Shown in pieces: positions 35,893 through 57,996 of a stretch of DNA of 64,000 bases. A program made the translations under genes and the position numbers. The notes below the pieces were generated by a model. It made no database searches and was not told the DNA's origin. It saw only the letters and a program-made list of their open reading frames with translations. Within the stretch, counting starts at the first letter, position 1. Each line of letters starts with the position of its first letter. Source of the stretch: Sphingobium sp. Z007 (lineage in GTDB: Bacteria > Pseudomonadota > Alphaproteobacteria > Sphingomonadales > Sphingomonadaceae); NCBI RefSeq assembly GCF_900013425.1, contig NZ_FBXK01000001.1, positions 673,501-737,500 on the forward strand, given 5' to 3'.

Positions 35893-36729
35893 TCACGCCA
35901 GCGCCTCGACCTCCGTATCGGCCACCAGCTTGGCCAGCCGCGCCGCGCTCACATCGTCCAGTGGCGCGAACAGCAATAGCCGCTGCCCCGGTGCTTCCTC
36001 TATCGCATAGCTGGTGTGGCGGAACATGATTTCGCCAACGCCCGGCATGTCGGCGATATTGGTGTCCTCGAAATGGGCCATGATCTCCGACTCCTGCCAA
36101 TAGCGGCGGAAAAATTCGGACTGGTCCATCATGTCGGCGATGATGCCTTCGAACACCTCCGGCTGGGCGGTGCGGCTATAATCCCATTTGAAACGGGCGA
36201 TCAGGCGGCGGCACATATCCTGGAACTTGTCCGGGTCGGCGCGATAGCGCGGGTTCAGCATCAGGATGCGGAACAGGTTGCGTTCCTCGCGCGGCATGGC
36301 GCTATAATCGCGAAAGGCGCGCGCGACGAGCCGGTTCCAGCCGATCACCGTCCAATCCTCCACGATCACCAGCGCAGGGATAGACAGCGCGTCCATCAGA
36401 TGCTGGGTGCCGGCATGGATCGTCTCGTCCGGGCGACACGCCAGCGGCGGCGGCCGATGCTGGGCCAGGGCGAAGAGAAATTCGCGCTCATTGGGGCTGA
36501 GGCGCAGCGTGCGGCTCAATCGCTCCAGCATCGGCGCGGATAGCTGCACCTCCCGGCCCTGCTCGAACCAGGTGTACCAGGTGACGCTCATCCCCGCGAG
36601 CGTCGCCACCTCTTCGCGCCGAAGCCCACGCGTGCGGCGGCGTTCGCCGGGCGGCAGTCCGACTTCAGACGGGGCCAGCTTCGCCCGCGCGGCTTTCAGG
36701 AACCGCGACAATTCTTCCCGTTGTGCCAT
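35893..36729 (-). CDS. XRE-type regulator with MmyB-like ligand-binding domain
   Basis: 278 aa. N-terminal helix-turn-helix (RTRGLRREEVATLAGMSVTWYTWFEQGR) typical of the MmyB group, then a PAS-like domain (ALVIVEDWTVIGWNRLVARAF) that binds fatty acids or similar ligands in characterised members. Divergent from the DUF849 gene across 119 bp, in which I see no clear palindrome. It may regulate the DUF849-SDR-SDR operon. Confidence 0.82.
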   Translation of the reverse strand: MAQREELSRFLKAARAKLAPSEVGLPPGERRRTRGLRREEVATLAGMSVTWYTWFEQGREVQLSAPMLERLSRTLRLSPNEREFLFALAQHRPPPLACRPDETIHAGTQHLMDALSIPALVIVEDWTVIGWNRLVARAFRDYSAMPREERNLFRILMLNPRYRADPDKFQDMCRRLIARFKWDYSRTAQPEVFEGIIADMMDQSEFFRRYWQESEIMAHFEDTNIADMPGVGEIMFRHTSYAIEEAPGQRLLLFAPLDDVSAARLAKLVADTEVEALA

Positions 36730-36848
36730 GCCTTATCCAGTTACTCGTAATGATGGGACATCCTACGGCCTTCTTGCGGGCCGTTTCCTCTGCAAGACCT
36801 TCGATCCTGCGATCGGCAGCATAGCCGAGACTACACAGGAGAGTAAGA

Positions 36849-37724
36849 TTGGCTGGCAAGCTATTTGTGACATGCGCGGTGACGGGAAGTTCGCCGATGC
36901 CCACGCACCCCAATTTCCCCTTCCGCCCCGATCATGTCGCCGCCGAAGCGCTGGCGGCGGCCGAAGCGGGCGCGGCGATCATCCACCTGCATGTGCGCGA
37001 CCGCGAAACCGGCGTCCCGTCGCAGGCGCTGGACGATTATCGGGAGGTCGTGGGCCTGATCCGGGCGAAGAATAACGAAGTCATCCTGAACGTCACGACC
37101 GGGCCGGGCTGCACCTGGATGCAGGGCGATGAAGACCCCGCCGTCTGCGGCCCCGGCACATTGATGTTCACGGCCGAACGGCGGCTGGAGCATATTCTCG
37201 ACCTCAAGCCCGACATGTGTACGCTCGACATTTGCACGATGCAGCTATGGGGCGGAGTGGCGATCAATCTCGACCCCATGATCACCAAGATGGGGCATAT
37301 GATCCAGGACGCCGGCGTGCTGCCGGAGATCGAATGTTTCGAGGCGGGTGATTTCGTCTTTGCCGACGACCTGATGGCCAAGGGCGCCATTCCCAAGGGG
37401 GTGCCCTTCACCTTCGTCCTGGGCACCAAATATGGCCTGCCCGCGACGCCCGAAGCCATGCTCTATGCCAAGAACCAAATTCCGCGCGGCGCGCAGTTCA
37501 CCGGCTTTGGCGTCAGCCGCCACAGCTTCCCGATGGCGGCGCAGTCGGCGCTGCTGGGCGGCAACATCCGCGTGGGGTTCGAGGATACGATCTACCTGCG
37601 GCGGGGCAGGCAGGCGGCGGACAATGCCGATCTGGTGCGCTGGGGTGTCGAAATGATCGAGCGGATCGGCGGCGACATCGCCAGCGCGGGTGAAGCGCGT
37701 GCGATGCTCGGCTTGAAACAATAA
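36849..37724 (+). CDS. beta-keto acid cleavage enzyme (BKACE, DUF849)
   Basis: 291 aa. Zn ligands H46 and H48 in IIHLHVRDRETG, LNVTTGPG, PEIECFEAGD and the C-terminal RVGFEDTIYL are BKACE signatures. The family condenses a beta-keto acid with acetyl-CoA, giving acetoacetate and a new acyl-CoA. Start is TTG, after AGGAGAGTAAGA. It opens an operon with two LigD-like SDRs. In the setting of beta-aryl ether catabolism an aroylacetate such as vanilloylacetate is an attractive substrate: the product would be vanilloyl-CoA plus acetoacetate. That substrate is my inference, not visible in the sequence. Confidence 0.85.
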   Translation: MAGKLFVTCAVTGSSPMPTHPNFPFRPDHVAAEALAAAEAGAAIIHLHVRDRETGVPSQALDDYREVVGLIRAKNNEVILNVTTGPGCTWMQGDEDPAVCGPGTLMFTAERRLEHILDLKPDMCTLDICTMQLWGGVAINLDPMITKMGHMIQDAGVLPEIECFEAGDFVFADDLMAKGAIPKGVPFTFVLGTKYGLPATPEAMLYAKNQIPRGAQFTGFGVSRHSFPMAAQSALLGGNIRVGFEDTIYLRRGRQAADNADLVRWGVEMIERIGGDIASAGEARAMLGLKQ

Positions 37725-37738
37725 GGGAGAGGATGGAT

Positions 37739-38674
37739 ATGACGCAGGCAACTCAGGCGCCCATGGGCGACGTAAGCGGCAAGACCGCCTTCATCACCGG
37801 TGGGGCGGACGGCATCGGTCTTGGCATCGCGCGCGCGCTGTTGCGGGCAGGGGCCAATGTGGTGATCGCCGACATTCGCAAGGATGCACTGGCGCGGGCG
37901 AAGGCGGACCTGGCCGCCGATGCGCAGGTGGAAACGGTGCAGTTGGACGTCACCGACCGGGCCGGATTCGTCCGCGCGGCCGACGCGGCGGAGGCGCGCT
38001 TTGACAAGATCCATATGCTGATCGGCAATGCCGGGGTTGGCGTGCTGGGCCCGGTGCTGGAGGCGCGGTTCGATGACTGGGACTGGGGGCTTGGCGTCAA
38101 TCTGGGCGGGGTCATCAACGGTCTGGTCACTATCCTGCCCCGGATCAGGGCGCATGGCGAAGGCGGGCAGATCGTCACCACCTCCTCGCAATCGGCGCTG
38201 ATCCCGATCAACGGATCAGCCATCTATACCGCGGCTAAGGCGGCGGTGCTGGGCCTGTCCGAAGCGATCCGGGGGGAGCTGGCCGCGGTCAATATCGGCG
38301 TATCGGCGTTCATGCCGGGACCGGTGCAAAGCAATATCGGCCATAGCAGCCAGTTGCGCCCGGACGCCTTCCGCGAAAATAGCGGTTATCGCCAGCATGA
38401 GGCAGCGATGGAGCAGCGGCCAGTCTCGCCGCTGTGGATGAGCGCCGATGAAGTGGGCGAACGGGTGCTGGCCGGCATCCGCGCCAACGACCTGTATATC
38501 CTGACCCACCCTGAATTTGCGGACGGTATGCGCACGCGGTTCGACGCGATCCTGGCGTCTATGCCGGACGAACGCATCAACCAGGAACGGGCGGGCGCCA
38601 TCGGCTTCCTGCTGTCCAATCCGGTGTTCGACGATCAATTGGCCCGGCGGACCGCGCAGGAACCAGTCGCATGA
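37739..38674 (+). CDS. SDR of the LigD/LigO C-alpha-dehydrogenase type
   Basis: 311 aa. TGGADGIGLGIA cofactor motif, VVIADIRKDAL, FDDWDWGLGVNLGGVINGLVT and catalytic IYTAAK. The (Y/F)DDWDW...VNLxGVING stretch and the ending LYILTHPEF recur in the C-alpha-dehydrogenases of Sphingobium beta-aryl ether pathways as I know them. An ATG six bases earlier (37733) abuts the AAGGGAGAGG ribosome-binding site, so 37739 is preferred. ATGA overlap with the next SDR. Confidence 0.8.
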   Translation: MTQATQAPMGDVSGKTAFITGGADGIGLGIARALLRAGANVVIADIRKDALARAKADLAADAQVETVQLDVTDRAGFVRAADAAEARFDKIHMLIGNAGVGVLGPVLEARFDDWDWGLGVNLGGVINGLVTILPRIRAHGEGGQIVTTSSQSALIPINGSAIYTAAKAAVLGLSEAIRGELAAVNIGVSAFMPGPVQSNIGHSSQLRPDAFRENSGYRQHEAAMEQRPVSPLWMSADEVGERVLAGIRANDLYILTHPEFADGMRTRFDAILASMPDERINQERAGAIGFLLSNPVFDDQLARRTAQEPVA

Positions 38675-39564
38675 CGCACGTCGCGGGGCGCACCGCCTTC
38701 ATCACCGGCGGCGGATCGGGCGTGGCGCTGGGGCAGGCGAAGGTCTTTGCGCAGGCCGGGTGCAGGGTCGCGATCGCCGACATCAGGCAGGACCATCTCG
38801 ATGAGGCCATGGCCTGGTTCGACGGGCGCGGGCATGAGGTGATGGCGGTGAAGCTGGATATCACCGACCGTGATGCCTATGCCCGCGCCGCCGACGAGGT
38901 GGAGGCCCGGCTGGGGCCGGTGGAACTGCTGTTCAACACGGCGGGCGTGTCGATCTTCGGGCCTTTGCAGAACGCGACCTATGATGATTGGGACTGGCAG
39001 CTGGACGTCAATCTGCGCGGTGTCATCAACGGTATCCAGACCTTCGTGCCGCGGATGATCAAACGGGGCAATGGCGGGCATATCGTCAATACCGCGTCGA
39101 TGTCCGCCTTCGTCGCGCTCAAGGGGACGGGCATTTACTGTACGTCGAAGATGGCGATCCGGGGCCTCACCGAATGTCTGGCGCTGGACCTGGCCGATCA
39201 TGGCATCGGCGTGTCGATGCTCTGCCCCGGCGCGGTCAACAGCAACATCCACGAAGCGGTGCTGACCCGGCCGGCACATCAGCAGAATACCGGCTATTAT
39301 GGCGCGGACCCTGGCGTGATGGCCCATCTTAAGCAGGTGATCGCGGTCGGCATGGAGCCGGAAGTGCTGGCGCAATATGTGTTGAAGGGCGTCGAGGACG
39401 ACCAGCTTTATATCCTGCCCTATCCCGAATTTCGCGGGACGCTGGAGGACATCCACGCACGCGTCATGGCGGCGGTGGCGCGGCCGGAGGACGATCCCGA
39501 TTACGAGAAGCGCGTCGCCCATGGCGTGCCTGGCGGCGAGAAGCGGGAGACGGTCGAGAATTAG
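38671..39564 (+). CDS. SDR of the LigD/LigO C-alpha-dehydrogenase type (second copy)
   Basis: 297 aa. TGGGSGVALGQAKVFAQAG, YDDWDWQLDVNLRGVINGIQTFVPRM, NTASMSAF and catalytic IYCTSK; C-terminus with LYILPYPEFRGTLEDIHA. It resembles LigD of Sphingobium SYK-6 more closely than its neighbour does. Two tandem enzymes could handle opposite stereoisomers of an arylglycerol ether or diol, as known for LigD and LigL/LigN. Followed by a terminator hairpin. Confidence 0.8.
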   Translation: MTHVAGRTAFITGGGSGVALGQAKVFAQAGCRVAIADIRQDHLDEAMAWFDGRGHEVMAVKLDITDRDAYARAADEVEARLGPVELLFNTAGVSIFGPLQNATYDDWDWQLDVNLRGVINGIQTFVPRMIKRGNGGHIVNTASMSAFVALKGTGIYCTSKMAIRGLTECLALDLADHGIGVSMLCPGAVNSNIHEAVLTRPAHQQNTGYYGADPGVMAHLKQVIAVGMEPEVLAQYVLKGVEDDQLYILPYPEFRGTLEDIHARVMAAVARPEDDPDYEKRVAHGVPGGEKRETVEN

Positions 39565-39631: not shown

Positions 39632-40504
39632 TCAGCCCAATCCCAACAATTTCACCGCATTATCCTTCATGATGAGCGGCAGCACTTCGTCCCGGAAGCC
39701 CGCTTCCCGCGCGGCGTCGATCCATTTTTCCGGGCGAATGAGAGGCCAGTCGGACCCAAACAGCATCTTATGTTTAAGCTGCGTATTGGCGTATTGGATC
39801 ACCTGTTTCGGAAAATATTTGGGCGACCAGCCTGACAGGTCCATGAAGACATTGTCCTTGTGCAGCGCCATAGACAGGCTTTCGTCGGTCCAAGGCCAGC
39901 TGGGATGGGCCAGGATGATCTTCATGTCGGGAAAATCGACCGCGACATCGTCCACCAGGATCGGCTGGCCATATTTCAGCCGCACCCCGCCGCCGCCGCG
40001 CATCCCGGTGCCCATGCCCGAATGGCCGGTGTGGAAGATGGCGGGCAGCTTATATTCGGCGATGACTTCATAGATGGGATAGGCGACCCGGTCGGCCGGA
40101 TGGCAATCCTGCATGATACCGTGGAATTTGAAGCCCTTCACCCCGTAATTTTCGACCAGGTCGCGGGCCTCGCGCGCGCCATACTTGCCCTTGCGCGGGT
40201 CGATCGAGGCGAAGGGAATGACGATGTCGCTGTCGTTCGCGGCCAGTTCCGCCACCTCGTAATTGCTGATCCGCTTGGCGCCGATGCCGCTCTCGCAATC
40301 GACGGTGAACAGGCAGAAGGCGATATTCTGCGCGCGATAATAAGCGATGGTTTCGGGAATGGTCGGCCGCTTGCGATCCGCCTTGAAATAGGCGGATGCG
40401 GCGTCGAAATATTTCGCCATCACCGGGTCTTCGGGATCGTGGCACGACACTTCGGCATGAACATGCACGTCGATGGCGATGACTTTCGTGGGATCAACGG
40501 GCAT
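39632..40504 (-). CDS. amidohydrolase-2 family protein
   Basis: 290 aa TIM-barrel metal enzyme: HxH at H14/H16 in DVHVHAE, IFHTGHSG, LAHPSWPW and FGSDWP, which are ACMSD/decarboxylase-like amidohydrolase-2 motifs. It overlaps the 3' end of the PQQ dehydrogenase gene by 11 bases and is last in the TonB-GST-GST-ligase-PQQ operon. It may be a decarboxylase or hydrolase of a ring-derived acid. It differs clearly from the LigW-like protein at 52249-53304, and no specific substrate can be assigned. Confidence 0.75.
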   Translation of the reverse strand: MPVDPTKVIAIDVHVHAEVSCHDPEDPVMAKYFDAASAYFKADRKRPTIPETIAYYRAQNIAFCLFTVDCESGIGAKRISNYEVAELAANDSDIVIPFASIDPRKGKYGAREARDLVENYGVKGFKFHGIMQDCHPADRVAYPIYEVIAEYKLPAIFHTGHSGMGTGMRGGGGVRLKYGQPILVDDVAVDFPDMKIILAHPSWPWTDESLSMALHKDNVFMDLSGWSPKYFPKQVIQYANTQLKHKMLFGSDWPLIRPEKWIDAAREAGFRDEVLPLIMKDNAVKLLGLG

Positions 40505-42623
40505 TGGGCTTGCTTTCCAGTGTCTTGTCCTCATTGGCGCGGTGGATGACGTAAGCACGGATATCCTCAATCTCCTTGGCGGAAAAGATCGAGGCGAAGC
40601 TGACCATGCCATTATCCTTCAATGCGCCATCATGCACGATCATCTGCCAGGTGGCTTTGTCGTTAAGCGCGGCGCTGTGGCGCAGGTCGGGGACGATGCT
40701 GCCGCCGACCGCGGAATCGCCATGGCAGGTGCTGCAATAGCGGCCGAAGCGTGCGCCGCCCGCTGCAATCTCCGCCGCGCTGGCGGTGGAGGGCGGCGGG
40801 TCGAGCGGCATGGCGGTAAGCGGCGGCACGGGCGGCAGGGGGGCCTTGCCGTCCAGCTTGAACACCAGCAGGCGGCTGATGTTGCGGCTGGGTCCGCTCT
40901 TGTCGGAGAGGATGCCGGGGGCCAGCGCCCAGACGCCGCCCCAGCCGGCCATCACCGCCACATATTGCGCGCCGTCCAGTTCATAGCTGATCGGCGCGGC
41001 GACGATGCCGGTTTGGGCCGGGAAGGACCAGAGCTTGCGGCCATCCTTGGTCGCATAGGCATTGAAATCCCCGGTCGCCGTGCCCTGAAACACCAGATCG
41101 CCGCCAGTCGCCAGCAGCCCGCCATTCCATGGTCCCTTATAGGAGACGCGCCATTTTTCCTTCTGTGCGACCGGGTCCCAGGCGATGAGCGCGCCGGTGG
41201 TCGCCTTCATCGCGGCCTCGCGCACCGCCTTGTCGGCGGGCATGGCGGCCGCTGCGATATCGACGCCGACGTTGAAGCCTAGCTTGTTCGCCTTCCACCC
41301 CTTTTCCGGGATATAAGGGAAGGCGGCGAGGTTGGCGGGGATGAAGACGGTCCGGCTCTTGGGATCAAAAGCCATAGGGTGCCAGCTATGCGCGCCGGTC
41401 GCGCCGGGGGAGCCGATGAAGGGCTTGCCGGTTTTGTAATAGCGCGCCGCCGGATTCTCGATCGGGCGTCCGGTCTTCATGTCGATGCCGCTGGCCCAGT
41501 TGACCGGCACAAAATTCTTCGCCGACAGCAGCTTTCCGTTGGTGCGGTCGAGAACGTAGAAAAAGCCGTTCTTGGGCGCCTGCATCAGCACTTTCTTCTT
41601 CTGGCCGCCCATCTCCATGTCCGCGAGCATGATATGCTGGGTGGCGGTGAAGTCCCAGCTATCGCCGGGCGTCGTCTGATAATGCCAGGCATAGGCGCCC
41701 GTCTTGGCGTGGACTGCAACGATCGATGAGAGATAGAGATTGTCGCCCTTGCCTTCGGAGCGATAAGTCTGGTTCCAGGGCGAACCATTGCCGACGCCGA
41801 TATAGAGCAGGTCAAGCTCCGGGTCATAGGCCATGGCGTCCCATACGGTGCCGCCGCCGCCCTGTTTCCACCACTCCCCATACCAGGTGGCGGCCGCTTT
41901 CTTGAGGTAATCCGGTTCTTGTTCCGTGCCGGGCTGGGCCGGGACGGTGTAGAATTTCCAGCGCTCCTTGCCCGTATCGGCATCATAGGCCGCGACATAG
42001 CCGCGCGCGCCGAACTCCGCCCCGCCATTGCCGATGACGACCAACCCGTTCACCACGCGCGGTGCGCCGGTGATGGTGTAATTCTTGGTCTGGTCGAGCG
42101 TCACGACGCTCCAGACCGGCTTGCCGCTCTTGCGGTCGATCGCGATCAGGCGGCCGTCCAATGTGCCGACGAACAATTTGTCGCCCCATGCCGCCACGCC
42201 GCGATTGACTGCGTCGCAACAGGCCTTGACCAAGGTTTCGCGCGGCACCTGCGGGTCATAAGACCAGAGCAGCTTGCCGCTGCGCGCATCATAGGCCTTC
42301 ACCATGCTCCAGGCGGTGGAGGTGTAGAGCACGCCGTCGATGAAGAGAGGCGTGCCCTCCTGCCCACGATTGGTGTCCAAGTCAGCGAACCAGGCGAGGC
42401 CCAGCTTCCCGATGGTGTCCTGGTTGATCGCGGTCAACGGGCTGAACCGCTGCTCGTCATAGGTGCGGCCGGTGGACAGCCACTCGGCCGGTTTGGCCGC
42501 GATGATGCGTGCGGCATCCACGCCGCCGGTCACGGCCGGGGCGGTCGCTTCCTGGCTGGTCCCCGTGCCGCAAGCTGACAGGGCCAGACTCGTTCCCACC
42601 AGCAGCGCTATCGCGATCCGCAT
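40494..42623 (-). CDS. PQQ-dependent quinohaemoprotein alcohol dehydrogenase, predicted lipoprotein
   Basis: 709 aa. Signal with lipobox L15-S-A-C18, so lipid anchoring is likely. The PQQ beta-propeller has the vicinal disulphide C135-C136 (VKACCDAVNRG), TPGDSWDF near the catalytic Asp and tryptophan-docking repeats (DARSGKLLWSYDP, DADTGKERWKFYT, WGGVWAL). A C-terminal cytochrome c domain has the haem motif CSTCH and a Met ligand candidate. This is the type II layout. ATG 42623 is preferred because GGAGAGG lies just upstream, inside an alternative start at 42638. Likely oxidises a phenolic side-chain alcohol in the periplasm. Confidence 0.88.
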   Translation of the reverse strand: MRIAIALLVGTSLALSACGTGTSQEATAPAVTGGVDAARIIAAKPAEWLSTGRTYDEQRFSPLTAINQDTIGKLGLAWFADLDTNRGQEGTPLFIDGVLYTSTAWSMVKAYDARSGKLLWSYDPQVPRETLVKACCDAVNRGVAAWGDKLFVGTLDGRLIAIDRKSGKPVWSVVTLDQTKNYTITGAPRVVNGLVVIGNGGAEFGARGYVAAYDADTGKERWKFYTVPAQPGTEQEPDYLKKAAATWYGEWWKQGGGGTVWDAMAYDPELDLLYIGVGNGSPWNQTYRSEGKGDNLYLSSIVAVHAKTGAYAWHYQTTPGDSWDFTATQHIMLADMEMGGQKKKVLMQAPKNGFFYVLDRTNGKLLSAKNFVPVNWASGIDMKTGRPIENPAARYYKTGKPFIGSPGATGAHSWHPMAFDPKSRTVFIPANLAAFPYIPEKGWKANKLGFNVGVDIAAAAMPADKAVREAAMKATTGALIAWDPVAQKEKWRVSYKGPWNGGLLATGGDLVFQGTATGDFNAYATKDGRKLWSFPAQTGIVAAPISYELDGAQYVAVMAGWGGVWALAPGILSDKSGPSRNISRLLVFKLDGKAPLPPVPPLTAMPLDPPPSTASAAEIAAGGARFGRYCSTCHGDSAVGGSIVPDLRHSAALNDKATWQMIVHDGALKDNGMVSFASIFSAKEIEDIRAYVIHRANEDKTLESKPNAR

Positions 42624-42667
42624 CCTATTCCTCTCCATGCCTGGCGCGGATGTTTGTCACCCATCGC

Positions 42668-48432: not shown

Positions 48433-48606
48433 TTTTATCGGATGCAAGAGCCGGATCGACCTCACAACGAACATTGTCGCACTATTTGCCAATATTGCGA
48501 GAGGGCAAATAATGCTGTTGTCTCTATTGGTGGTATTGGCAATAACAGGATGATCGGGGGTGGAGAGGGTACGCGCCGAAAACCCTTTATTTCGCGATGT
48601 CTGCGT

Positions 48607-49071
48607 TCAGACGTAGACGCGCCGCAGCAACTCTACGAGCATTGCGGTTTCGGCCGGACTGAACCGCGCCTTGAGCCAATTTTCATGCTCGGCGATGCAG
48701 GCGCGCGCCTTTGCCAGCGAGTCGCGGCCGCCATCGGTCAGGCTCAACGTCTGGCGGCGGCGATCCTGCGCGGAGGCGCCGCGGGTCAGGAAACCGCGGT
48801 CCTGCATGCGATTGACGATAGCCATCACGCTCGCCCGGTCCATTTTCAGCCGGCGGCCAATGTCCGCCTGCGCGATGCCGGGCTGATCCTCGATCAGCCA
48901 GAGGACGGCAACCTGCTTTTGCGTGAGGCCCAAGTCGCTGAAGGTTTCGGTGAAGTGCTGATAGACCGCCGCGCTGGCCAGCCGGATATGAAAACCGACC
49001 AGTCCATCGATGCCGCTGAGGCGGGGATCGGGGAAGATGTCGAGCGGTTCAATGTCATTCATGGTATTCAT
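48607..49071 (-). CDS. MarR-family regulator of the lignin-dimer genes
   Basis: 154 aa winged-helix protein: [51 protein letters not shown] then [16 protein letters not shown], the standard MarR wing. Start is ATG 49071 or 49062; neither has a strong ribosome-binding site. Divergent from the stilbene dioxygenase, with operator site B between. MarR repressors commonly release DNA on binding a phenolic acid or its CoA ester, so a pathway intermediate is a likely inducer. Confidence 0.87.
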
Positions 49072-49115
49072 AGTAACAGTGTGCGGAGTAAGTGCTGATA
49101 CGTCAATCCGGGCAC

Positions 49116-49143
49116 TTGAAAAAATGTCTGTGTCACATACAAT
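49116..49143 (+). promoter_or_regulatory. stilbene-dioxygenase promoter with MarR operator site B
   Basis: TTGAAA (49116-49121), 16-bp spacer, TACAAT (49138-49143). The palindrome ATGTCTGT-GTC-ACATACAA (49124-49142) covers the spacer and -10, an ideal position for repression. It matches the shared consensus at 14 of 16 positions. Confidence 0.65.
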
Positions 49144-49174
49144 ATCTTCAACCATAAAAGGGAGAGGATCAGCC

Positions 49175-50647: not shown

Positions 50648-52252
50648 TTACACCTGCTCCCCCGCCGCCCGCGCGCGGGGGAGAAGGCTGGCATGGTCGC
50701 GTTCGACGCGCCACAACAGCACCAGCAATATCAGCACCAGCGGTGGCGCGACCCAGTTGATCGACAGGATCGCCCCGCCCAGGTCGCCGCCGCGCGCATC
50801 GCTTATCATGCCCACGGCATAGGGACCGATGCCGAGGCCGAAGATGGTCGATACAACGATATAGAGGCTGACGGTCAGCCCGCGCATCCGCGGCAGCACC
50901 TGTTCGAACAACACGGCGTAAAGCGGCGGCATCCACATGGTCAGGATCAGGCTGTAGAGCGTGAAGCGGAGGTAGAAGCCGCCCGCATCCGGCGCATGAT
51001 AGACCCAGAACGCCAGGCATGGCGACAGGCTCATGGCGAACAGCGCGACCCACACCCGGCGCGACAGGCGGTGCGCGCCGATCCGGTCGGACAAAGGCCC
51101 GGCGATCAGCGGCCCGACCACACCCAGCGCGGCGGACAGTAGTCCGAATTGCAGCCCGGTGTCGGCGGGCGACAGGCCATAGCCTTTCATCAGGAAGGAC
51201 GGCGTAAAGCCCATCACGCCATAGTTGATGACGCTTTGCAGAGCCCCCGCTGCGATGCAGAGCAGCAGCGAGGGATTGCGGGTGATGAGCGCGAAAGCGA
51301 CCGGATCGCGCCCTTTGAGATTTTGCAGCAGGTTGGCGATAACGAACGCGCCAAAGCCGATCACGCTCCATTGCACGACATGCGGGCTGATCGCCATGCC
51401 AGCCAGCAGCAGCGGTGGACGCGGCGAGAAAGCCTCCGCCCAGCCGATCGCCAGCAGCATCGCAACGACGATCAGCACCAACAGGCCGATGTTGAGCGCC
51501 CACTCTCGCGTCGTCGCCCGCGTGCGCGCCAGGCTCATCCAATGAAAGCCGGGCGTCACCGCGCCCAGCACGTTCAGGCTGGCGCGGAAAGGGTGCGGAT
51601 CAGGCGCGGTCGTGATGCCGTCCATTGCGCCCCGTTCCGGTTCGGGCAGGCGGCTCATCAGGAAGGCGATGAGGAAGCCGGGCGTCGCGGCCACCGCGAA
51701 GGCAAATTGCCAGCCCTTCAGGCCCAGCGGCGCCGTGCCTGCGGCGTAGCGCGCATCCCACCATTGCGCGGCCATGCCGCCGATGATGAGCGATCCGCCA
51801 AGGCCTATGGCGATCGCGGCGGCCATCACCGCCATCACCATGCCGCGCTTTTCGCGGGGAAAATAATCATAGGTCAGGCTGGTGCCGGCTGGTTGCGACG
51901 CCGCTTCGCCGATGCCGACGCACAGGCGCGAGAGCATCAGCGTGAAGAAGCCGGTCGCCAAAGCCGCGCCGCCGGTGGCGAGCGACCAGAAGCCGATCGT
52001 GATGGCCAGCAGTTTCGTTCTGATCCACCCGTCCGCCAGCCGCCCCAGCGGGAGCGAAAACAGTGCGTAGAAGAGCGCGAAGACGGTGCCGTAGAGCAGC
52101 CCCATCTCCGCGTCGCCGATCTTCAGGTCCGCCTTGATCGCGGGGGCTAGGATGGCGAGGATATTGCGGTCGAGCAGGCTGACCAGATTGGTGCCTGCCA
52201 CCAGCGCCAGCGCATAATAGGCCGTGGCGCGCGAAGGGTTCGCTATCGTCAC
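50648..52252 (-). CDS. MFS transporter (spinster-like / aromatic acid type)
   Basis: 534 aa with about 12 transmembrane segments. MFS motif A variant GRLADGWIRTKLLA, SLLDRNILAILAPAIKADLKIGDAEMGLLYG at the N-terminus as in the spinster-like group, and a long loop of about 50 residues after helix 6. GTG start overlaps the ligW-like stop (GTGA), so it is the last gene of the NTF2-ALDH-ligW-MFS operon. It probably moves an aromatic acid or dimer across the inner membrane; direction and substrate are not deducible. Confidence 0.8.
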   Translation of the reverse strand: MTIANPSRATAYYALALVAGTNLVSLLDRNILAILAPAIKADLKIGDAEMGLLYGTVFALFYALFSLPLGRLADGWIRTKLLAITIGFWSLATGGAALATGFFTLMLSRLCVGIGEAASQPAGTSLTYDYFPREKRGMVMAVMAAAIAIGLGGSLIIGGMAAQWWDARYAAGTAPLGLKGWQFAFAVAATPGFLIAFLMSRLPEPERGAMDGITTAPDPHPFRASLNVLGAVTPGFHWMSLARTRATTREWALNIGLLVLIVVAMLLAIGWAEAFSPRPPLLLAGMAISPHVVQWSVIGFGAFVIANLLQNLKGRDPVAFALITRNPSLLLCIAAGALQSVINYGVMGFTPSFLMKGYGLSPADTGLQFGLLSAALGVVGPLIAGPLSDRIGAHRLSRRVWVALFAMSLSPCLAFWVYHAPDAGGFYLRFTLYSLILTMWMPPLYAVLFEQVLPRMRGLTVSLYIVVSTIFGLGIGPYAVGMISDARGGDLGGAILSINWVAPPLVLILLVLLWRVERDHASLLPRARAAGEQV

Positions 52253-53304
52253 AGGGCGAACACGCGCTCGGCATTGGTCTGCATCAACTTGCGCTTCGCC
52301 TCGTCCGAAATGTCCAGCAGGTCGTGCGTCCGCACCTCATCCGCCACATATTGATAGGGATAGTCCATCGCATACATGACCCGATCCTCTCCCAGTACGG
52401 ATTGTGCGAACTTGATCGCCGGCTCCCATGCCATGCCGCTGGTGGTGACACAGATGTTCGACCGCATATAGTCGTGGATCGATTTGTTGAGCGGCTTCAT
52501 CCGCGCATAACGCTGCGACCGCACGCCCGCCTGGTGCATATAGTCGAGCCGGTAGAGCCAATAGGGCAGCGCCTCCCCCATATGGCCAACGATGATCTGC
52601 AAATCGGGATAGCGGTCGAAAATGCCGATGGTGATGAGCCGCAGTAGGTGCATCCCCGTCTCCACGCCAAAGCCGAAGATCGCGCCGTCCAGCCCCGCGT
52701 CCAGCATTGGCCCGATCATCGCGTCGGGCGGCGTCGAGGGATGGATATAGAGCGGCTGGCCGGTATCGGCGAGCGCGCGGAAGATCGGGTCGAACTTGGC
52801 GTCGTCCAGATATTCGCCCTGCGTATGGCTGTTGACCATCACCCCCTTGAAGCCAAGATCGCCCGCCCCGCGCCGGATTTCGGCGGCGGACCAGTCCGGG
52901 TCTTGCGGCGCGATCGACGTCATGCCGACGAAACGGGTCGGATGGGCGGCGCAGCGATCGGCGAGATGATCGTTGGCGCGGGCGACCATCGCCTTGGCCT
53001 CTTCCACTTCGAGCAGGGGCTGCACGCCGGGCGAGGTCAGCGACAGGATTGCGACGTCGATCCCCGTCGCATCCATGTCGGCCAGCCTTCGTTCGCCAAG
53101 GTCCAGTAACCGGTCGATGATCTGGGTCGCGCGTTCCGATGGCGATTGCGCGTAAAAGCCCCAGAGCGACACCATGCCCCGGTCCGCCGTCCCGTCGCGC
53201 ACCATGCGCAGATAGGCGTCGATCTGCTCGCGGGTGGCGAAGGCTTCTTCGGTGGCGATGCGCAGATAGCCGCGGTCGTCGCCCGTGTTCAATGCATGGC
53301 TCAT
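52249..53304 (-). CDS. ligW: LigW-like 5-carboxyvanillate decarboxylase
   Basis: 351 aa amidohydrolase-2 enzyme. It carries E19, R58, H188, H241 and D314, the metal-binding and catalytic residues described for LigW (Glu19, His188, Asp314; Arg58 and His241) at identical numbers. GYLRIATEEAFATREQIDAYL, LWGFYAQSPSERATQI and YAMDYPYQYVADEVR match LigW as I recall it. It would convert 5-carboxyvanillate to vanillate. 5-Carboxyvanillate can arise from biphenyl or phenylcoumaran dimers, so its presence beside a stilbene dioxygenase favours beta-5 substrates. Coupled to ALDH (gap 3) and MFS (overlap 4). Confidence 0.88.
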   Translation of the reverse strand: MSHALNTGDDRGYLRIATEEAFATREQIDAYLRMVRDGTADRGMVSLWGFYAQSPSERATQIIDRLLDLGERRLADMDATGIDVAILSLTSPGVQPLLEVEEAKAMVARANDHLADRCAAHPTRFVGMTSIAPQDPDWSAAEIRRGAGDLGFKGVMVNSHTQGEYLDDAKFDPIFRALADTGQPLYIHPSTPPDAMIGPMLDAGLDGAIFGFGVETGMHLLRLITIGIFDRYPDLQIIVGHMGEALPYWLYRLDYMHQAGVRSQRYARMKPLNKSIHDYMRSNICVTTSGMAWEPAIKFAQSVLGEDRVMYAMDYPYQYVADEVRTHDLLDISDEAKRKLMQTNAERVFAL

Positions 53305-53307: not shown

Positions 53308-54735
53308 TTATCCTTCGTGAATGGCTTTGGTGACGAGGCAGGCGTCGATCCCTTCGGGACCGTCCTCTGCGCCATGGCCAGACCATTTGACCCCGCCGAA
53401 CGGGGAATCCGACCCGCCGATCATCGCGGTGTTGATGCCGACCATCCCGGCCTCGACCGCCCGCGCGACCCGGCGCTGGCGCGCGGCGTCGCTGGTCCAG
53501 GCATAAGCGGCGAGGCCATAGGGGAGCCGATTGGCCTCCGCGATCATGGCGGCCTCGTCGGGATAGGCGTTGATGAGGGCGACGGGGCCGAACGGCTCCT
53601 CGTTCATAATGGCGGCGTCCAGCGGCGCGCCCGACAGCACGGTGGGGGCGAAGAAATAGCCCGCATTGCCGATCCGTTCGCCGCCGGTTTCGAGGCGTGC
53701 GCCCTTCGCGACCGCGTCGCCGATCAACCGGTCCATCGCATCGAGCCGCCGGGCATTGGCCATCGGCCCCATGACGCTGCCGGGGTCCGATCCATCGCCG
53801 ACCGTCACTCTCTTTGCGCGTTCGACAAAGCCGGCAAGGAAGCGATCATGCACGCCCGCTTCCACGATGAAGCGGGTGGGCGACACGCACACCTGCCCGG
53901 CATTGCGATATTTGCCCGCCACCACCGTATCGAGCGCCCGCTCGATATCGGCGTCGGCGAAGACCAGCACCGGGCCATGGCCGCCCAATTCCATCGTCGT
54001 GCGCTTGCAATCCTCCGCCGCCAATTTGGCCAGGTGCTTGCCCACGAGCGTGGAGCCGGTGAAGCTCATCTTGCGGATGATGGGGGAGCCGAGCAGGTGG
54101 CGCGACACCTCGTCGGGCACGCCGAACACCGCCTGCGCGACATCGCCCGGCAGGCCAGCGTCGAGCAGGCATTGCAGCACGCCCAGCGCTGACGCGGGCG
54201 TTTCCTCCGCCGCCTTCAGGATCACCGAACATCCCGCCGCGATCGGCGCGCCCAGCTTGCGGCCGGGATTGCCGAGCGGGAAATTCCACGGGGCGAAGGC
54301 CGCGACCGGGCCGACCGGCTCCTTCGTCACCGTCGATCGCTGCCCGGCCGGACGCACCAGCGCCCGGCCGTAGAGGCGGAAGACCTCCCCGGCGTAGAAA
54401 TTGAACAGGCCGACATTCATCATCACTTCGATGCGCGCTTCGGCCAGCGTCTTGCCCTGTTCCAGTGTGGCGATGCGGGCGAGATCCTCCTGCCGCTCGA
54501 CCATCAACCGCGCCGCGCCCTGCAACACCGCCGCCCGTTCCTGCGGCGTGGAATCGCGCCAGCGGCGGAACCCCCGCTCCGCCGCCGCCAGCGCGGCGTC
54601 CAGGTCCGCCGCATCGGCCAGCGGCAGGTCCGCGATCGCTTCGCCGGTGGCGGGGTTGACGACCTTGTGGGTGCGTCGCCCGCCGCCCGACAACCGCTGG
54701 CCGTCGATCATCAGATACAGGTCGGGATAGGCCAT
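53308..54735 (-). CDS. NAD(P)-dependent aldehyde dehydrogenase (probable aromatic aldehyde oxidation)
   Basis: 475 aa. AFAPWNFPLGNPGRK, FTGSTLVGK, catalytic Glu in TMELGGHGPVLVF and catalytic Cys in NAGQVCVSPTRF; EEPFGPVALI completes the family pattern. The sequence type is close to succinate-semialdehyde/vanillin dehydrogenases. Between the NTF2-like lyase and ligW, its natural substrates are probably vanillin or 5-formyl phenolic aldehydes released by the stilbene dioxygenase. Confidence 0.88.
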   Translation of the reverse strand: MAYPDLYLMIDGQRLSGGGRRTHKVVNPATGEAIADLPLADAADLDAALAAAERGFRRWRDSTPQERAAVLQGAARLMVERQEDLARIATLEQGKTLAEARIEVMMNVGLFNFYAGEVFRLYGRALVRPAGQRSTVTKEPVGPVAAFAPWNFPLGNPGRKLGAPIAAGCSVILKAAEETPASALGVLQCLLDAGLPGDVAQAVFGVPDEVSRHLLGSPIIRKMSFTGSTLVGKHLAKLAAEDCKRTTMELGGHGPVLVFADADIERALDTVVAGKYRNAGQVCVSPTRFIVEAGVHDRFLAGFVERAKRVTVGDGSDPGSVMGPMANARRLDAMDRLIGDAVAKGARLETGGERIGNAGYFFAPTVLSGAPLDAAIMNEEPFGPVALINAYPDEAAMIAEANRLPYGLAAYAWTSDAARQRRVARAVEAGMVGINTAMIGGSDSPFGGVKWSGHGAEDGPEGIDACLVTKAIHEG

Positions 54736-54739: not shown

Positions 54740-55498
54740 TCAGACGCTCACGGCTGCGCGCGCGGCCCGCTCCCGGTCGATATCGCCCTGCCAGCGTTCG
54801 GCGACAATCGCCTTGCCCGTCACCGGATGCACCATATGGAACGGCACCATCTTGTGCGTCGGCCACAACCAATGATCCTCGATCAGTGCGTCCGGGCCGG
54901 TCGGGTCTTCGGGATAGGTGATCTTGGGGAAGGGCACATATTCGGCCGGGGTATTGGCCCAGCCCTGATCGAAATCGGCGTGCCATTGCGGCATGTAATT
55001 CAGGATCTGGATGCGCCAGATGCCGTCCACCTTCTTATAGGTATTCTCATAAATGCCGCCTTCCCACCATTGGCGCGCGCCGAGAGCCGGATTGGACGGG
55101 TCGGTATAATCCTTGTGCCGGCCCGCCTGCATCATCGACCGGGCGCGGGCATAAGCGGTGACGCCGTCGGCGTCGATATCGACAATATCCTGCAATTGCG
55201 GATGGTCGAGCAGGAAGCCGTCGATCGGCCCGTTGGTGCCATGGGTGAAACGCTTCTGGAAGCGTTCGACATAGAGGCGGCGGATGCCCGCCTGGCCGCG
55301 CCACACGCCGCCGAAGAAACGCACTTCGCCATCTTCGGTGAACAGGTCGGCGGTTTCGTTATAGAGGCATTTATCGATCAGATAGCCGTAGAGATGCTGC
55401 AATTTGCGCACGTCCAGCTCATCTTCGCGCCGTTGCAGGCGGGTGCTGAGGTCGGCGACGCTCTGTTCCAGGCGGGCGATACGGTCGGTCTCGGACAT
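54740..55498 (-). CDS. NTF2/SnoaL-like protein, candidate gamma-formaldehyde lyase (LdpA/LsdE type)
   Basis: 252 aa. N-terminal helical coil (RIARLEQSVADLSTRLQRRE) then an SnoaL-like cone fold: DVRKLQHLYGYLIDKCLYNETADLFTEDGEVRFFGGVWRG and WWEGGIYENTYKKVDGIWRIQILNYMPQWHADF. The C-terminal 70 residues extend beyond a simple NTF2 domain. Cofactor-free NTF2-like enzymes next to stilbene dioxygenases in sphingomonads (LdpA, LsdE) deformylate diarylpropane diols to lignostilbene. That identity is inferred from fold and neighbours. ATG 55498 follows AGGAGAG; operator site C lies just upstream, so the operon has its own promoter. Confidence 0.72.
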   Translation of the reverse strand: MSETDRIARLEQSVADLSTRLQRREDELDVRKLQHLYGYLIDKCLYNETADLFTEDGEVRFFGGVWRGQAGIRRLYVERFQKRFTHGTNGPIDGFLLDHPQLQDIVDIDADGVTAYARARSMMQAGRHKDYTDPSNPALGARQWWEGGIYENTYKKVDGIWRIQILNYMPQWHADFDQGWANTPAEYVPFPKITYPEDPTGPDALIEDHWLWPTHKMVPFHMVHPVTGKAIVAERWQGDIDRERAARAAVSV

Positions 55499-55515
55499 GA
55501 TTGGCTCTCCTATCA

Positions 55516-55534
55516 TTGTATGTAATACTTACAG
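55516..55534. promoter_or_regulatory. candidate MarR operator, site C (lyase-ALDH-ligW operon)
   Basis: TTGTATGT-AAT-ACTTACAG, 14 of 16 matches to the shared palindrome, in the 37-bp gap between the upstream MFS stop and the lyase start. On the minus strand it contains TACAAT (55515-55520), the same -10-like element as at site B. Confidence 0.65.
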
Positions 55535-55535
55535 A

Positions 55536-56960
55536 TTAGATGGCTTGTGCGGCCAATCGCTCCACTTCCTCGCGATAAGGGCGGATGGCGCGGACCATGC
55601 AGAGCGTAGCGATCGGCAGCAGCACGGCCGCGGTCATCACCAGCGACTTCCAAAGCTGGCTGGGATCGCCGACGATATAGTCCTGCACCAAGCCGACCAG
55701 GAAGCTGCCCATCGCGCCGAAGAAGGTGAACATGAACAGGTAGATCGCCGTCACCTGCCCCCGCATCGCATTGGGCGCGACGCGCTGGATAGCGGCGTTC
55801 TGGGGCACGGCGCCGGCGATGCCGAACATCGCGCCGATGCTGGCGACGCCCAGCGAAGCGTAGCCGTTGGGCATCAGCGGGGCGAGGATGGCGCAGACCG
55901 TCACGCAGCCGAAGAATATCGCGGCGGCGCGGACATTGGCGTCGGCATGGCGCTTGGCCAGCCATTCGACGAAGATGCCGCCCAGCAGCAGGCCCGTCAG
56001 TGAGGCGACCAATGTCATCGATCCCATCACCGCGCCGATCTGCGCCTCGTTCCAGCCATAGGTGCGGATCATAAAGGGCACGCGCCAGAATTGCAGGCCG
56101 AACACTTCGATCGCGCTCAAAGCCAGCCCGGCAAACAGCGGATAATAGACGCGGCGCTTGGCATGGATTGCCTTGGCGGCGTCCAGCCCGGTGAACGTCA
56201 GGATACGGCGGCCCAGCGACGCGTCAGCGGGGGGCATGATCGAGCCGGCGGGCGGCGCCTGGCGCGGCGGTTCCTTGACCGTCAGGAACAGCAGGCCGAC
56301 CAACAAGGCGGGCAGGCCCAGCCAGATCATCAGCCATTGCCAGCCCAAAATAGTAAGGCCCCCATGCTGGGTCGGCGCCCATCCGGCCGCGGTCGCGATC
56401 AGCATGCCGCCGATTGCCGGCCCCAGCGTGGTGCCGCCGATAAAGCCGAATTGCAGCAGGGCGAAGGCGCGGGTCAGGATGCGCGGCGGGAAGGCGTCCG
56501 CCAGCAGCGAATAGGACGACGGCGCATGGGCCGATCCCCCCGCGGCCAGGAAAACGCGACTGCCGACGAACTGGCCGAACGTCTGCGCGATGCCGCCCAT
56601 GGAGGTGATGACGCCCAGCGCCGCGCAACCGCCCGCCAGCACATATTTGCGCGGAAAGATGTCGGCCAGCCGCGCCAGCGGGATGCCGACGAACAGATAG
56701 CAGATGATGCTGGCGGGACCGGCCAGGAAGCCGAGTTGCGAATCGGACAGGCCGAAATCCGCCTTGATCCGCTCCGCCAGCATGGCGAACACCACCTGTT
56801 CGAAAAAGGTGACGAAGGTCGCCAGGATGATGACAAACAGCGCCCAATAGGCAGCGCCCATCGAGTAAGGCGGGCGCGCCGTCGCGGCGGCATCCAGCGA
56901 TGCGGTCGCATCTACATCCCATAATGTCTCGGTCGCAATCGGCGCGGGTGCCAGGGCCAT
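55536..56960 (-). CDS. MFS transporter
   Basis: 474 aa with about 12 transmembrane segments. After a 40-residue cytoplasmic N-terminus comes WALFVIILATFVTFFEQVVFAMLAERIKADFGLSDSQLGFLAGPAS, then motif A variant GIPLARLADIFPRKYVLA. Same broad group as the transporter at 50648-52252 but clearly a different protein. ATG 56960 is preferred: the upstream GTG at 56978 lies in the GGAGAGGAGAAGG ribosome-binding site. Divergent from the SDR at 57094. Probably a second importer for lignin-derived aromatics. Confidence 0.8.
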   Translation of the reverse strand: MALAPAPIATETLWDVDATASLDAAATARPPYSMGAAYWALFVIILATFVTFFEQVVFAMLAERIKADFGLSDSQLGFLAGPASIICYLFVGIPLARLADIFPRKYVLAGGCAALGVITSMGGIAQTFGQFVGSRVFLAAGGSAHAPSSYSLLADAFPPRILTRAFALLQFGFIGGTTLGPAIGGMLIATAAGWAPTQHGGLTILGWQWLMIWLGLPALLVGLLFLTVKEPPRQAPPAGSIMPPADASLGRRILTFTGLDAAKAIHAKRRVYYPLFAGLALSAIEVFGLQFWRVPFMIRTYGWNEAQIGAVMGSMTLVASLTGLLLGGIFVEWLAKRHADANVRAAAIFFGCVTVCAILAPLMPNGYASLGVASIGAMFGIAGAVPQNAAIQRVAPNAMRGQVTAIYLFMFTFFGAMGSFLVGLVQDYIVGDPSQLWKSLVMTAAVLLPIATLCMVRAIRPYREEVERLAAQAI

Positions 56961-57020
56961 GGGCCTTCTCCTCTCCACTTCTCCCTTTGTTCACAGGGAT
57001 GAAATTTCGGCTTGGCGAAT

Positions 57021-57039
57021 TTGTAAGTGAACTATACGA
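57021..57039. promoter_or_regulatory. candidate MarR operator, site D (MFS/SDR divergent region)
   Basis: TTGTAAGT-GAA-CTATACGA matches the shared palindrome at 12 of 16 positions, the weakest of the four. It lies in the 133-bp divergent gap 56961-57093. A perfect TATAAT (57068-57073) inside ACGGT-N10-ACCGT is also present, without a convincing -35. Confidence 0.45.
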
Positions 57040-57093
57040 TTATGGCGAGAGAAAAATGCACGGTCGTTATAATCACCGTCATGGGAGAATAGG

Positions 57094-57996
57094 ATGCTCG
57101 AATTTGCAGGACGCACTGCCTTCGTCACTGGTGGCGCCAACGGCATCGGCCTGGGCCTGGTCCGCGCCTTGCTGGCGCAGGGGTGCAAGGTGGCGATCGC
57201 CGACATTCGCGAGGATGCGCTGGCCGCGGCCGTCAAGACGCTCGACAATCAAAGCGTTATAGCTGTCCAACTCGATGTCGCATCGCGCACCGGCTTCGCC
57301 GAGGCAGCCGACCGGGCCGAGGCGGCTTTGGGACCGGTCAGCCTGGTTTTCAACAATGCGGGCATCAACCTGTTCCAGACCATCGACGAGTCCAGCTATG
57401 ACGATTGGGACTGGGTGATGGGGGTCAATCTGCACGGCGTCATCAACGGCGTGATGACCTTCGCGCCGCGAATGAAGGCGCTGGGGCGGGGCGGTCATAT
57501 CGTTAACACCGCGTCGATGGCGAGCTTCCTGTGCGGCGGCGCGCCCGGCATCTACAATACCACCAAATTCGCGGTGCGCGGCATGAGCGAATCCCTGCGC
57601 TACAGCTTGGCGCCGCATGGCATCGGCGTGTCGCTGCTCTGCCCCGGTCTGGTGAAGAGCCATATCTACGCCAGCGACGAAATCCGTCCGGCGGCGCTCA
57701 GCGGCGGCGCGAAGCCGGTGGACAGCGCGGCGGTCGGGCGGCTGGAGCAGTTGCACCAGTTCGGCATGGAGCCGGACGTCATCGCCGCCCGCACATTGGA
57801 AGCCATGCAGGAGAACCGCTTCCACATCTTCCCCCATCCCGAATTTCGCGATGAACTGGCGACGGTGTTCGACGAGATACTCGCCGATTTCCGCGACTAT
57901 CCGCAGGATGCCGGATTTGAGCAGCGCACCGGCTTCGAAAAGATGCGCCGCGAGGGCTATGCCAAGGCCCGGCGCGCCGCGCGCGAACGCGCTTAA
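57094..57996 (+). CDS. SDR of the LigD/LigO C-alpha-dehydrogenase type (third copy)
   Basis: 300 aa. TGGANGIGLGLVRALLAQG, YDDWDWVMGVNLHGVINGVMTFAPRM, NTASMASF and catalytic IYNTTK; ending FHIFPHPEFRDELATVFDEI. The same family as the two SDRs at 37739-39564 but in a separate transcription unit. It may oxidise the alpha-hydroxyl or gamma-alcohol of a dimer. Its stop overlaps that of the convergent winged-helix gene by four bases. Confidence 0.8.
   Translation: MLEFAGRTAFVTGGANGIGLGLVRALLAQGCKVAIADIREDALAAAVKTLDNQSVIAVQLDVASRTGFAEAADRAEAALGPVSLVFNNAGINLFQTIDESSYDDWDWVMGVNLHGVINGVMTFAPRMKALGRGGHIVNTASMASFLCGGAPGIYNTTKFAVRGMSESLRYSLAPHGIGVSLLCPGLVKSHIYASDEIRPAALSGGAKPVDSAAVGRLEQLHQFGMEPDVIAARTLEAMQENRFHIFPHPEFRDELATVFDEILADFRDYPQDAGFEQRTGFEKMRREGYAKARRAARERA

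Follow-up and report, generated by a model that had tools for sequence, protein, structure and literature searches.

A probable two-arm lignin-dimer island in Sphingobium sp. Z007, with beta-5 and beta-O-4 gene sets side by side

Do genes for two different lignin-dimer linkages that lie next to each other form one catabolic island, or are they two operons that happen to be neighbors? The question is raised by a 64,000-nucleotide stretch of Sphingobium sp. Z007 (the window; positions 673,501-737,500 of a 1.17-Mb contig in a 4.94-Mb genome), in which codon-position composition and Pfam and NCBIfam matches define an island of 17 genes at 35,893-57,996. We consider it very likely that this is a two-arm lignin-dimer island, in which a beta-5 (phenylcoumaran) arm and a beta-O-4 (aryl ether) arm stand side by side. 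We infer that both arms act together as one funnel, and likewise the roles of the pyrroloquinoline quinone (PQQ) enzyme, the CoA ligase, the amidohydrolase AH1, the beta-keto acid cleavage enzyme (BKACE) and the regulator. What is new here is the arrangement of two known pathways side by side, together with one testable assignment that would fill a gap; our literature search, for which subscription papers were mostly outside reach, found no paper joining a beta-5 cluster to baeAB. Four rival explanations are weighed below where their evidence falls, and as they concern different parts of the island, they are not mutually exclusive.

The left operon, on the minus strand, runs TonB receptor-BaeA-BaeB-CoA ligase-PQQ dehydrogenase/cytochrome c-AH1 with gaps of 62, -4, 4, 29, and -11 bp, and the right operon runs MFS2-PcfL-FerD-LigW-MFS1 (MFS, major facilitator superfamily) with gaps of 19, 4, 3, and -4 bp. 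The LsdD and TonB receptor genes between them are divergent, with 841 bp separating the two. A third block makes up the left end, where an MmyB regulator is divergent from BKACE-SDRa-SDRb (SDR, short-chain dehydrogenase/reductase), and SDRc, in the place of LigN/LigO, forms the right end. The first-pass annotation, made from the letters of the window, had listed most of these genes: its three LigD-type SDRs, its NOV1-like dioxygenase and LigW-like decarboxylase with their key residues, and its aldehyde dehydrogenase (ALDH), SnoaL/NTF2 protein, PQQ dehydrogenase, CoA ligase, TonB receptor, and two MFS proteins are all borne out by the matches given below, and BaeB, the second amidohydrolase AH1, BKACE, and the MmyB-type regulator are additions to that list. 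The GC content of the island (0.639, against 0.651-0.664 in its surroundings) gave no sign of recent import.

The beta-5 arm

The genes of this arm and the SDR at its far end are as follows.

49175..50644, plus strand: LsdD/NOV1-type lignostilbene alpha,beta-dioxygenase (NCBIfam LigStilDioxAlpha above cut-off; 6xm6, E 1e-259; 5j53, E 1e-256)
50648..52252, minus strand: MFS transporter 1 (domain match)
52249..53304, minus strand: LigW, predicted 5-carboxyvanillate/5-carboxyferulate decarboxylase (4inf match and key residues)
53308..54735, minus strand: FerD-type aldehyde dehydrogenase (Aldedh; same cluster place as the N. subterraneum gene)
54740..55516, minus strand: PcfL-type phenylcoumaran gamma-formaldehyde lyase, predicted (NTF2/SnoaL)
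55536..56978, minus strand: MFS transporter 2, first gene of the pcfL operon (domain match)
57094..57996, plus strand: SDRc, SDR of the LigN/LigO place (66% to 3ioy; same place in the N. subterraneum pcfL cluster)

LsdD scored 897 bits against a curated NCBIfam cut-off of 800 and keeps four histidines, H167, H218, H284, and H476, along with Y101 and K134 (NOV1 numbering), which we take to be the iron ligands and catalytic residues. Its start lies at 49175 and not at 49010, as the alignment to 6xm6 and 5j53 begins at M56. The top match of LigW was PDB 4inf (Saro_0799; E 1.9e-185), and the enzyme keeps E19, R58, H188, H241, R252, and D314, presumably its catalytic and metal-binding residues.

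Gene order points the same way as the residues. In Novosphingobium subterraneum, which we take to be a close relative of N. aromaticivorans, the order is SDRc-SDRa-MFS2-PcfL-FerD-LigW-MFS1-LsdD (locus L148), and identities to the window are 76% for PcfL, 80% for FerD, 76% for LigW, and 71% for LsdD. The order SDRc-(SDRa)-MFS2-PcfL-FerD-LigW-MFS1-LsdD was found in this locus and five others of the eight compared, the exceptions being one without LsdD in its stretch (L149) and one without MFS2 (L154). The window is also consistent with the published Saro_0793-0802 (PMC11323797, PMC12997858). It holds the same gene set as the beta-5 cluster of N. aromaticivorans DSM 12444 (Saro_0796 PcfL, Saro_0797 FerD, Saro_0799 LigW, Saro_0802 LsdD; PMC11323797) and, judged by N. 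subterraneum, the same order of SDRs, MFS, PcfL, FerD, LigW, MFS, and LsdD. Two differences stand out: the far end has one SDR in the window and two in the N. aromaticivorans-type cluster, and, unlike in that cluster, LsdD of the window faces the TonB receptor of the baeAB operon, joining both modules.

We identify LsdD, LigW, FerD, and PcfL of the window by orthology, key residues, and gene order, and the reactions predicted for them are those published for relatives. The side-chain alcohol of dehydrodiconiferyl alcohol would be oxidized, PcfL would then open the phenylcoumaran ring with loss of formaldehyde, LsdD would cleave the resulting stilbene to vanillin and 5-formylferulate, and FerD would oxidize the latter for LigW to decarboxylate to ferulate. 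Since FerD and LigW of the characterized N. aromaticivorans cluster convert 5-formylferulate to ferulate and its LsdD gives vanillin (PMC11323797), vanillin and ferulate are the expected products here.

The lyase is the point at which a different pathway has to be considered. If it were LdpA and the dioxygenase served stilbenes derived from 1,2-diguaiacylpropane-1,3-diol (DGPD) or resembling resveratrol, the cluster would belong to beta-1 (diarylpropane) or plant-stilbene degradation; an NTF2 lyase and a NOV1-type dioxygenase are indeed present, and in vitro cleavage of resveratrol has been reported for NOV1 (PMC11323797). However, the lyase is only 43% identical to LdpA (8abv) versus 71-76% to proteins in the PcfL position (76% for that of N. 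subterraneum), PcfL and LdpA being themselves reported as 44% identical (PMC11323797), and no second member of the PcfL/LdpA family was found in the genome of strain Z007 at E up to 0.001. The DGPD pathway as presented in the accessible part of a review, moreover, includes no step for FerD or LigW (PMC12997858). On the identities and the lack of a further family member in the genome, we rejected LdpA as the identity of the lyase, and we regard the beta-1 or plant-stilbene pathway as very improbable; we read the lyase as PcfL-type and predict that it releases formaldehyde from DC-C. The histidine changed to glutamine in PDB 8abu is conserved in it, and an LdpA-type protein in another locus (L036) is 62% identical to 8abv.

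Measured against these results, the dimer types first proposed for the island stand for the well-supported beta-5 and beta-O-4 arms and fall away for beta-1, and an endpoint at vanillate does not hold for the beta-5 arm. The accompanying statement that such steps are usually spread over the genome overlooks that the beta-5 steps have already been published as a cluster.

Two other dioxygenase loci were observed. A second dioxygenase of strain Z007, about 40% identical to LsdD (L142; G000:C1:36000-53000), lies near a TonB receptor, an ALDH, and a match to PQQ dehydrogenase. On a plasmid of Roseinatronobacter sp. S2 (L186; 490379-501830), a lignostilbene dioxygenase 61% identical to that of the window lies between two DUF3237 proteins, a family that we take to be that of the Phc decarboxylases, and is accompanied by a glucose-methanol-choline oxidoreductase and two ALDHs, so that the locus resembles a compact SYK-6-type (PhcCD/PhcFG) beta-5 operon on a Rhodobacterales plasmid.

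The beta-O-4 arm

The second arm is made up of the left operon and the left-end SDRs, listed here with the rest of the left end and the divergent region.

35893..36729, minus strand: MmyB/MLTR-type helix-turn-helix regulator, candidate regulator at the left edge (Pfam MLTR_LBD and HTH_31; adjoins BKACE in several relatives)
36849..37724, plus strand: BKACE (PF05853; PDB 9zsc, E 3e-82)
37733..38674, plus strand: SDRa, C-alpha-dehydrogenase-like SDR (40% to LigD, 42% to 3ioy)
38671..39564, plus strand: SDRb, LigD-type C-alpha-dehydrogenase (58% to SYK-6 LigD, 4ya6)
39632..40504, minus strand: AH1, amidohydrolase_2, predicted CouO/HpeF-type aryl-beta-ketoacyl-CoA hydrolase; last gene of the bae operon
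40494..42638, minus strand: PQQ-dependent alcohol dehydrogenase with a cytochrome c domain (TIGR03075 above cut-off; Cytochrome_CBB3)
42668..44230, minus strand: AMP-forming acyl-CoA ligase, putative vanilloylacetate-CoA ligase (AMP-binding domains; operon place between baeB and the PQQ gene)
44235..44984, minus strand: BaeB, second subunit of the beta(R)-etherase (adjoins BaeA)
44981..45748 (start MTNV; open reading frame to 45841), minus strand: BaeA, catalytic subunit of the beta(R)-etherase
45811..48333, minus strand: TonB-dependent receptor, first gene of the bae operon (domain match; 62-bp gap to baeA)
48334..49174: divergent intergenic region between the TonB receptor and LsdD, with promoter-like sites at 48486-48513 and 49116-49143 (plus strand); two were found against 0.5 expected, as consensus matches only

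The gene first described as a LigF-like glutathione S-transferase (GST) does encode a GST, but one that we identify as BaeA, only 37% identical to SYK-6 LigF (4xt0); the genuine LigF, 65% identical, lies about 0.35 Mb from the island on the same contig. BaeAB is a heterodimer with Asn14/Ser15 in BaeA, a BaeB Ser14 that is dispensable for catalysis, and BaeA always directly upstream (PMC6369299). The window pair shares these features with the described enzymes (Saro_2873/2872 and SxeBaeAB; PMC6369299): the genes are adjacent with BaeA upstream and overlap by 4 bp, BaeA has N14/S15, and BaeB, in the numbering as described, has S14 preceded by P13 and no Asn. BaeB adjoins BaeA in all 78 testable loci among the best 80 of 143 BaeA relatives, two loci whose contig ends at once being left out, and the 11 closest (87-95% identity) are all from Sphingobium.

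One locus (L012) belongs to S. xenophagum NBRC 107872, the source of a BaeAB with demonstrated cleavage of beta(R)-MPHPV (MPHPV, alpha-(2-methoxyphenoxy)-beta-hydroxypropiovanillone; PMC6369299). Compared with the window by tblastn, its BaeA is 87% identical over 286 amino acids and its BaeB 81%, and window BaeA against the S. xenophagum gene gave 93% over 255 amino acids. The flanks of L012 hold, in window order, the TonB receptor, LsdD, MFS1, LigW, FerD, PcfL, CoA ligase, PQQ enzyme, AH1, SDRa, BKACE, and regulator; SDRb is missing, and a phosphate-selective porin domain protein (PF07396; 16298-17716) lies between AH1 and SDRa instead. Because this is the strain of the characterized BaeAB and the island genes surround it, the characterized enzyme comes from an orthologous island. 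We call the window pair BaeAB and predict from the S. xenophagum orthologue that it cleaves beta(R)-MPHPV. The neighbors of baeAB are beta-5 genes in the window, versus desCD/pin, by nearby locus numbers, in N. aromaticivorans (PMC12997858).

The proposed route begins with LigD/LigN-type SDRs, which would oxidize C-alpha. BaeA/BaeB would then use glutathione to cleave the beta(R)-ether, a GST from another part of the genome would remove the glutathione to yield beta-hydroxypropiovanillone (HPV), and the PQQ enzyme and an ALDH might convert HPV through vanilloylacetaldehyde to vanilloylacetate. The CoA ligase would make vanilloylacetyl-CoA, which AH1 would hydrolyze to vanillate and acetyl-CoA. 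In N. subterraneum, the corresponding operon is baeA-baeB-CoA ligase-PQQ-ALDH-AH1, and LigA of the protocatechuate 4,5-pathway is present in the genome of strain Z007.

Several observations weigh against parts of this route. A GST in the genome passes the NF008731 cut-off, and LigQ and its F199 homologue are described in the terms of this family (PMC12997858), but it is weak evidence for a dedicated lyase because the family was also matched in 4 of 14 control genomes, E. coli included. Saro_2870, which from its position is probably the PQQ enzyme's orthologue, was the only one of six expected locus tags to turn up in the literature searched; it was assayed and does not appear among the enzymes reported active on DC-A in the accessible part of the paper (PMC11323797), and N. 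aromaticivorans oxidizes HPV with HpvY, encoded elsewhere (PMC11837543). We keep the PQQ dehydrogenase as a candidate oxidase of a gamma-alcohol such as HPV.

The LigF orthologue (L140; G000:C1:1070000-1089999, 11367-15282) was seen together with two more GSTs and an ALDH. In two relatives (G014 and G015), a GST 38-39% identical to BaeA, as is the LigF orthologue, and an ALDH lie a few kilobases beside the MmyB regulator of the island; they would enlarge the cluster further, with the GST as a candidate LigF.

Linkage of the two arms among relatives

LsdD and BaeA at identities of at least 87% occur in the same 11 of 61 congeneric genomes (strain Z007 included), always on one contig and 0.7-3.2 kb apart. 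The Fisher p of 2e-12 is uncorrected for relatedness and overstates independence because the 11 genomes are related; they are also largely the same genomes as the Sphingobium loci of the BaeA survey (L003-L013), so these are not two independent sets. Nine of the 11 were mapped in detail, and one (G026) was counted but not mapped. The core AH1-PQQ-CoA ligase-BaeB-BaeA-LsdD is present in all eight relatives that hold the whole stretch, with the TonB receptor missing in one (G046). The outer blocks are less constant than this core. The right block is found in six of the nine mapped relatives, and the left edge lies beside AH1 in four of eight (G014, G015, G057, and G009, with SDRb missing in the last two).

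One alternative is that two independent known operons are merely adjacent, with no joint funnel and no selection for linkage. In many Novosphingobium loci, either module stands without the other in its vicinity, and several congeners are without one block. The right block is not next to LsdD in G014, G035, and G046, nor the left edge beside AH1 in G035, G039, G046, and G051. At lower identity, eight congeneric genomes have LsdD at 69-73% and only four of them also BaeA at 68-70%. In G056 and G028, these two genes are separated by 28-38 kb, and in G033 and G040, they do not share a contig; the N. subterraneum genome has about 140 kb between its two modules. These findings weigh against the island reading. 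Sphingobium sp. V4 likewise has only the central part, from SDRc to AH1 (83-99% identity), on a 1.25-Mb plasmid typed as conjugative (L193; NZ_CP081002.1, 295000-344000), where no left edge lies at the island and BKACE is about 230 kb away. Against mere adjacency stand the co-occurrence of LsdD and BaeA at close range in the 11 genomes and a recurrence of their association in other arrangements: outside the Sphingobium block, 9 of 69 BaeA loci (25 of which have shorter flanks) lie within 10 kb of a beta-5 gene, including those of Marinicaulis, a Parvularcula bin, and gammaproteobacterial bins, although bins may be mis-assigned. Taking both sides together, we consider independent operons unlikely and prefer the reading of a two-arm island. 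Such an island would be a natural cassette for two common lignin linkages, plasmid-borne in one strain, and useful for moving dimer pathways into production strains.

AH1, the CoA ligase, and the vanilloylacetate step

The last step of the beta-O-4 route is the one for which a gap exists. In N. aromaticivorans F199, vanilloylacetate is likely formed, VceA/VceB homologues were not found, and additional enzymes are expected to be discovered (PMC11837543). AH1, which has no NCBIfam match, accompanies BaeA closely: it was found in all 30 genomes chosen for BaeA, at 76-99% identity (E up to 1e-60), and in 14 of 15 BaeA-positive versus 4 of 46 BaeA-negative congeneric genomes. Mean column identity was 85% in an alignment of 27 sequences, drawn from 46 listed orthologues with the window as first row replacing one.

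The surroundings of more distant AH1 homologues suggest a CoA-dependent function. A CoA ligase lies near the homologue in 12 of 15 annotated plasmid stretches, versus none of six dioxygenase control stretches (p 0.0015), and in 11 of 12 when identity is at least 44%. Flanks were 6 kb for some of the homologue stretches and 5 kb for the rest and the controls; with equal 5-kb flanks, the ligase of Pseudomonas putida drops out, and the counts become 11 of 15 (p 0.004) and 10 of 12. The stretches were 17 among 104 matching records, chosen for annotation and spread and not at random, of which two without annotation (H41 and H23) were left out; the controls (H6, H7, H8, H11, H14, and H15) were annotated lignostilbene-dioxygenase matches, one of them poorly annotated. 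The three homologues without a ligase are from Alloyangia (60%, with a feruloyl esterase adjoining), Thermomicrobium (41%), and Haloferax (39%). On plasmids of P. putida YC-AE1 and R. leguminosarum BT01, the AH1 homologue stands with a biotin carboxylase, a haloacid dehalogenase (HAD) hydrolase, and an acetoacetate-CoA ligase, in an operon of the acetophenone-carboxylase type. The Hpe operon has the same make-up; in the scheme proposed for it, HpeE activates hydroxyphenyl-beta-ketopropionate and HpeF releases acetyl-CoA (PMC9618137). One homologue (56%) is annotated as a 4-hydroxyphenyl-beta-ketoacyl-CoA hydrolase, a name by annotation only.

Like Rhodococcus Hpe (HpeE/HpeF) and CouL/CouO (PMC9618137), then, the window has a CoA ligase near an amidohydrolase, and the close homologues of that amidohydrolase stand in acetophenone-carboxylase-type and hydroxycinnamate-type operons, as in Hpe and Cou. 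Unlike Hpe, the window has no kinase or carboxylase, its ligase resembles fatty-acid-CoA ligases and not an acetoacetate-CoA ligase, and its substrate would come from HPV, whereas that of Hpe comes from acetovanillone. SYK-6 VceA/VceB catalyze the same net step as is predicted here, from vanilloylacetate to vanillate, and are non-homologous to HpeE/HpeF (PMC9618137). Given the Hpe-like context, the lack of VceA/VceB in F199, and an N. subterraneum operon without BKACE (its genome has none at E up to 1e-60), we predict that ligase and AH1 supply the step, and the pair is a good candidate for converting vanilloylacetate to vanillate and acetyl-CoA. The fuller claim, that they are the missing HpeE/HpeF-like step of sphingomonads without VceA/VceB, is one we put forward tentatively, as a possibility with nearly as much for it as against it; if true, one operon led by a TonB receptor would take up beta(R)-aryl ethers and degrade them as far as vanillate, and with the adjoining beta-5 operon it would form a single dimer funnel. 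The baeAB operon now offers two named candidate genes for the missing step, with a precedent for the chemistry; in its accessible part, Table 1 included, the review PMC12997858 gives no function for the genes of the CoA ligase/AH1 region.

Some results count against this assignment. In five of the 30 BaeA genomes with AH1, the CoA ligase had no match at E 1e-150, and in five more it was below 60% identity; among annotated plasmid relatives of the ligase, three (44-48%) are found in operons of the thiolase/beta-oxidation type that have no AH1. AH1 is present and BaeA absent in four congeneric genomes, and the reverse is seen in one. The modeled structure of AH1 is an amidohydrolase TIM barrel nearest to the uncharacterized 3irs and 3cjp and next to aromatic decarboxylases, to which the predicted fold is equally similar. 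AH1 could thus be a metal-dependent decarboxylase like its structural neighbors, acting, for example, on vanilloylacetate to give acetovanillone. Because the fold is widely shared, it shows no function and does not settle the choice between decarboxylase and hydrolase, but the closest annotated relatives of AH1 are mostly in CoA-ligase operons, one of them with the hydrolase annotation mentioned above, and we find a decarboxylase distinctly unlikely, favoring the hydrolase.

The vanilloylacetate step might instead be performed by BKACE as a VceA-like enzyme (the family membership of VceA is our assumption), leaving AH1 and the CoA ligase for another substrate, such as a hydroxycinnamate degraded by CoA-dependent beta-oxidation. 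An acetophenone-carboxylase-type operon on S. yanoikuyae plasmid pSYA3-2 holds a BKACE and a thioesterase, where a VceA/VceB-type function would fit, and AH1 homologues are also found beside feruloyl-CoA synthase and enoyl-CoA hydratase. However, BKACE of the window is only 31% identical to that of pSYA3-2, it is present in 13 of the 30 BaeA genomes versus all 30 for AH1 (E up to 1e-60), and the bae operon is without an enoyl-CoA hydratase gene. We therefore consider a BKACE-catalyzed step somewhat unlikely and retain the ligase and AH1 as the preferred candidates. A mutual exclusion of BKACE and the CoA ligase was also considered and dropped: in the 30 BaeA genomes, both occur in 8, BKACE only in 5, the ligase (at least 66% identity) only in 12, and neither in 5 (p 0.71).

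The pSYA3-2 locus (L192; 52000-68000) is a row of dioxygenase, ALDH, NTF2 protein, thioesterase, BKACE, Tm-1-like protein, biotin carboxylase, and HAD hydrolase, in which BKACE and the thioesterase occupy the place that the acetoacetate-CoA ligase and the AH1-like amidohydrolase have in P. putida YC-AE1. At the right edge of the window island, an open reading frame of 224 amino acids (57993-58667, minus strand) had no match in Pfam, NCBIfam, or PADLOC and has matches of 84-92% at the same edge in five of the nine mapped relatives. Directly to the left of the island (31948-35780) are TetR, acyl-CoA dehydrogenase, thiolase, and SDR genes, which may be ordinary beta-oxidation genes, and such genes are also found 6-7 kb from the MmyB regulator in G057 and G009.

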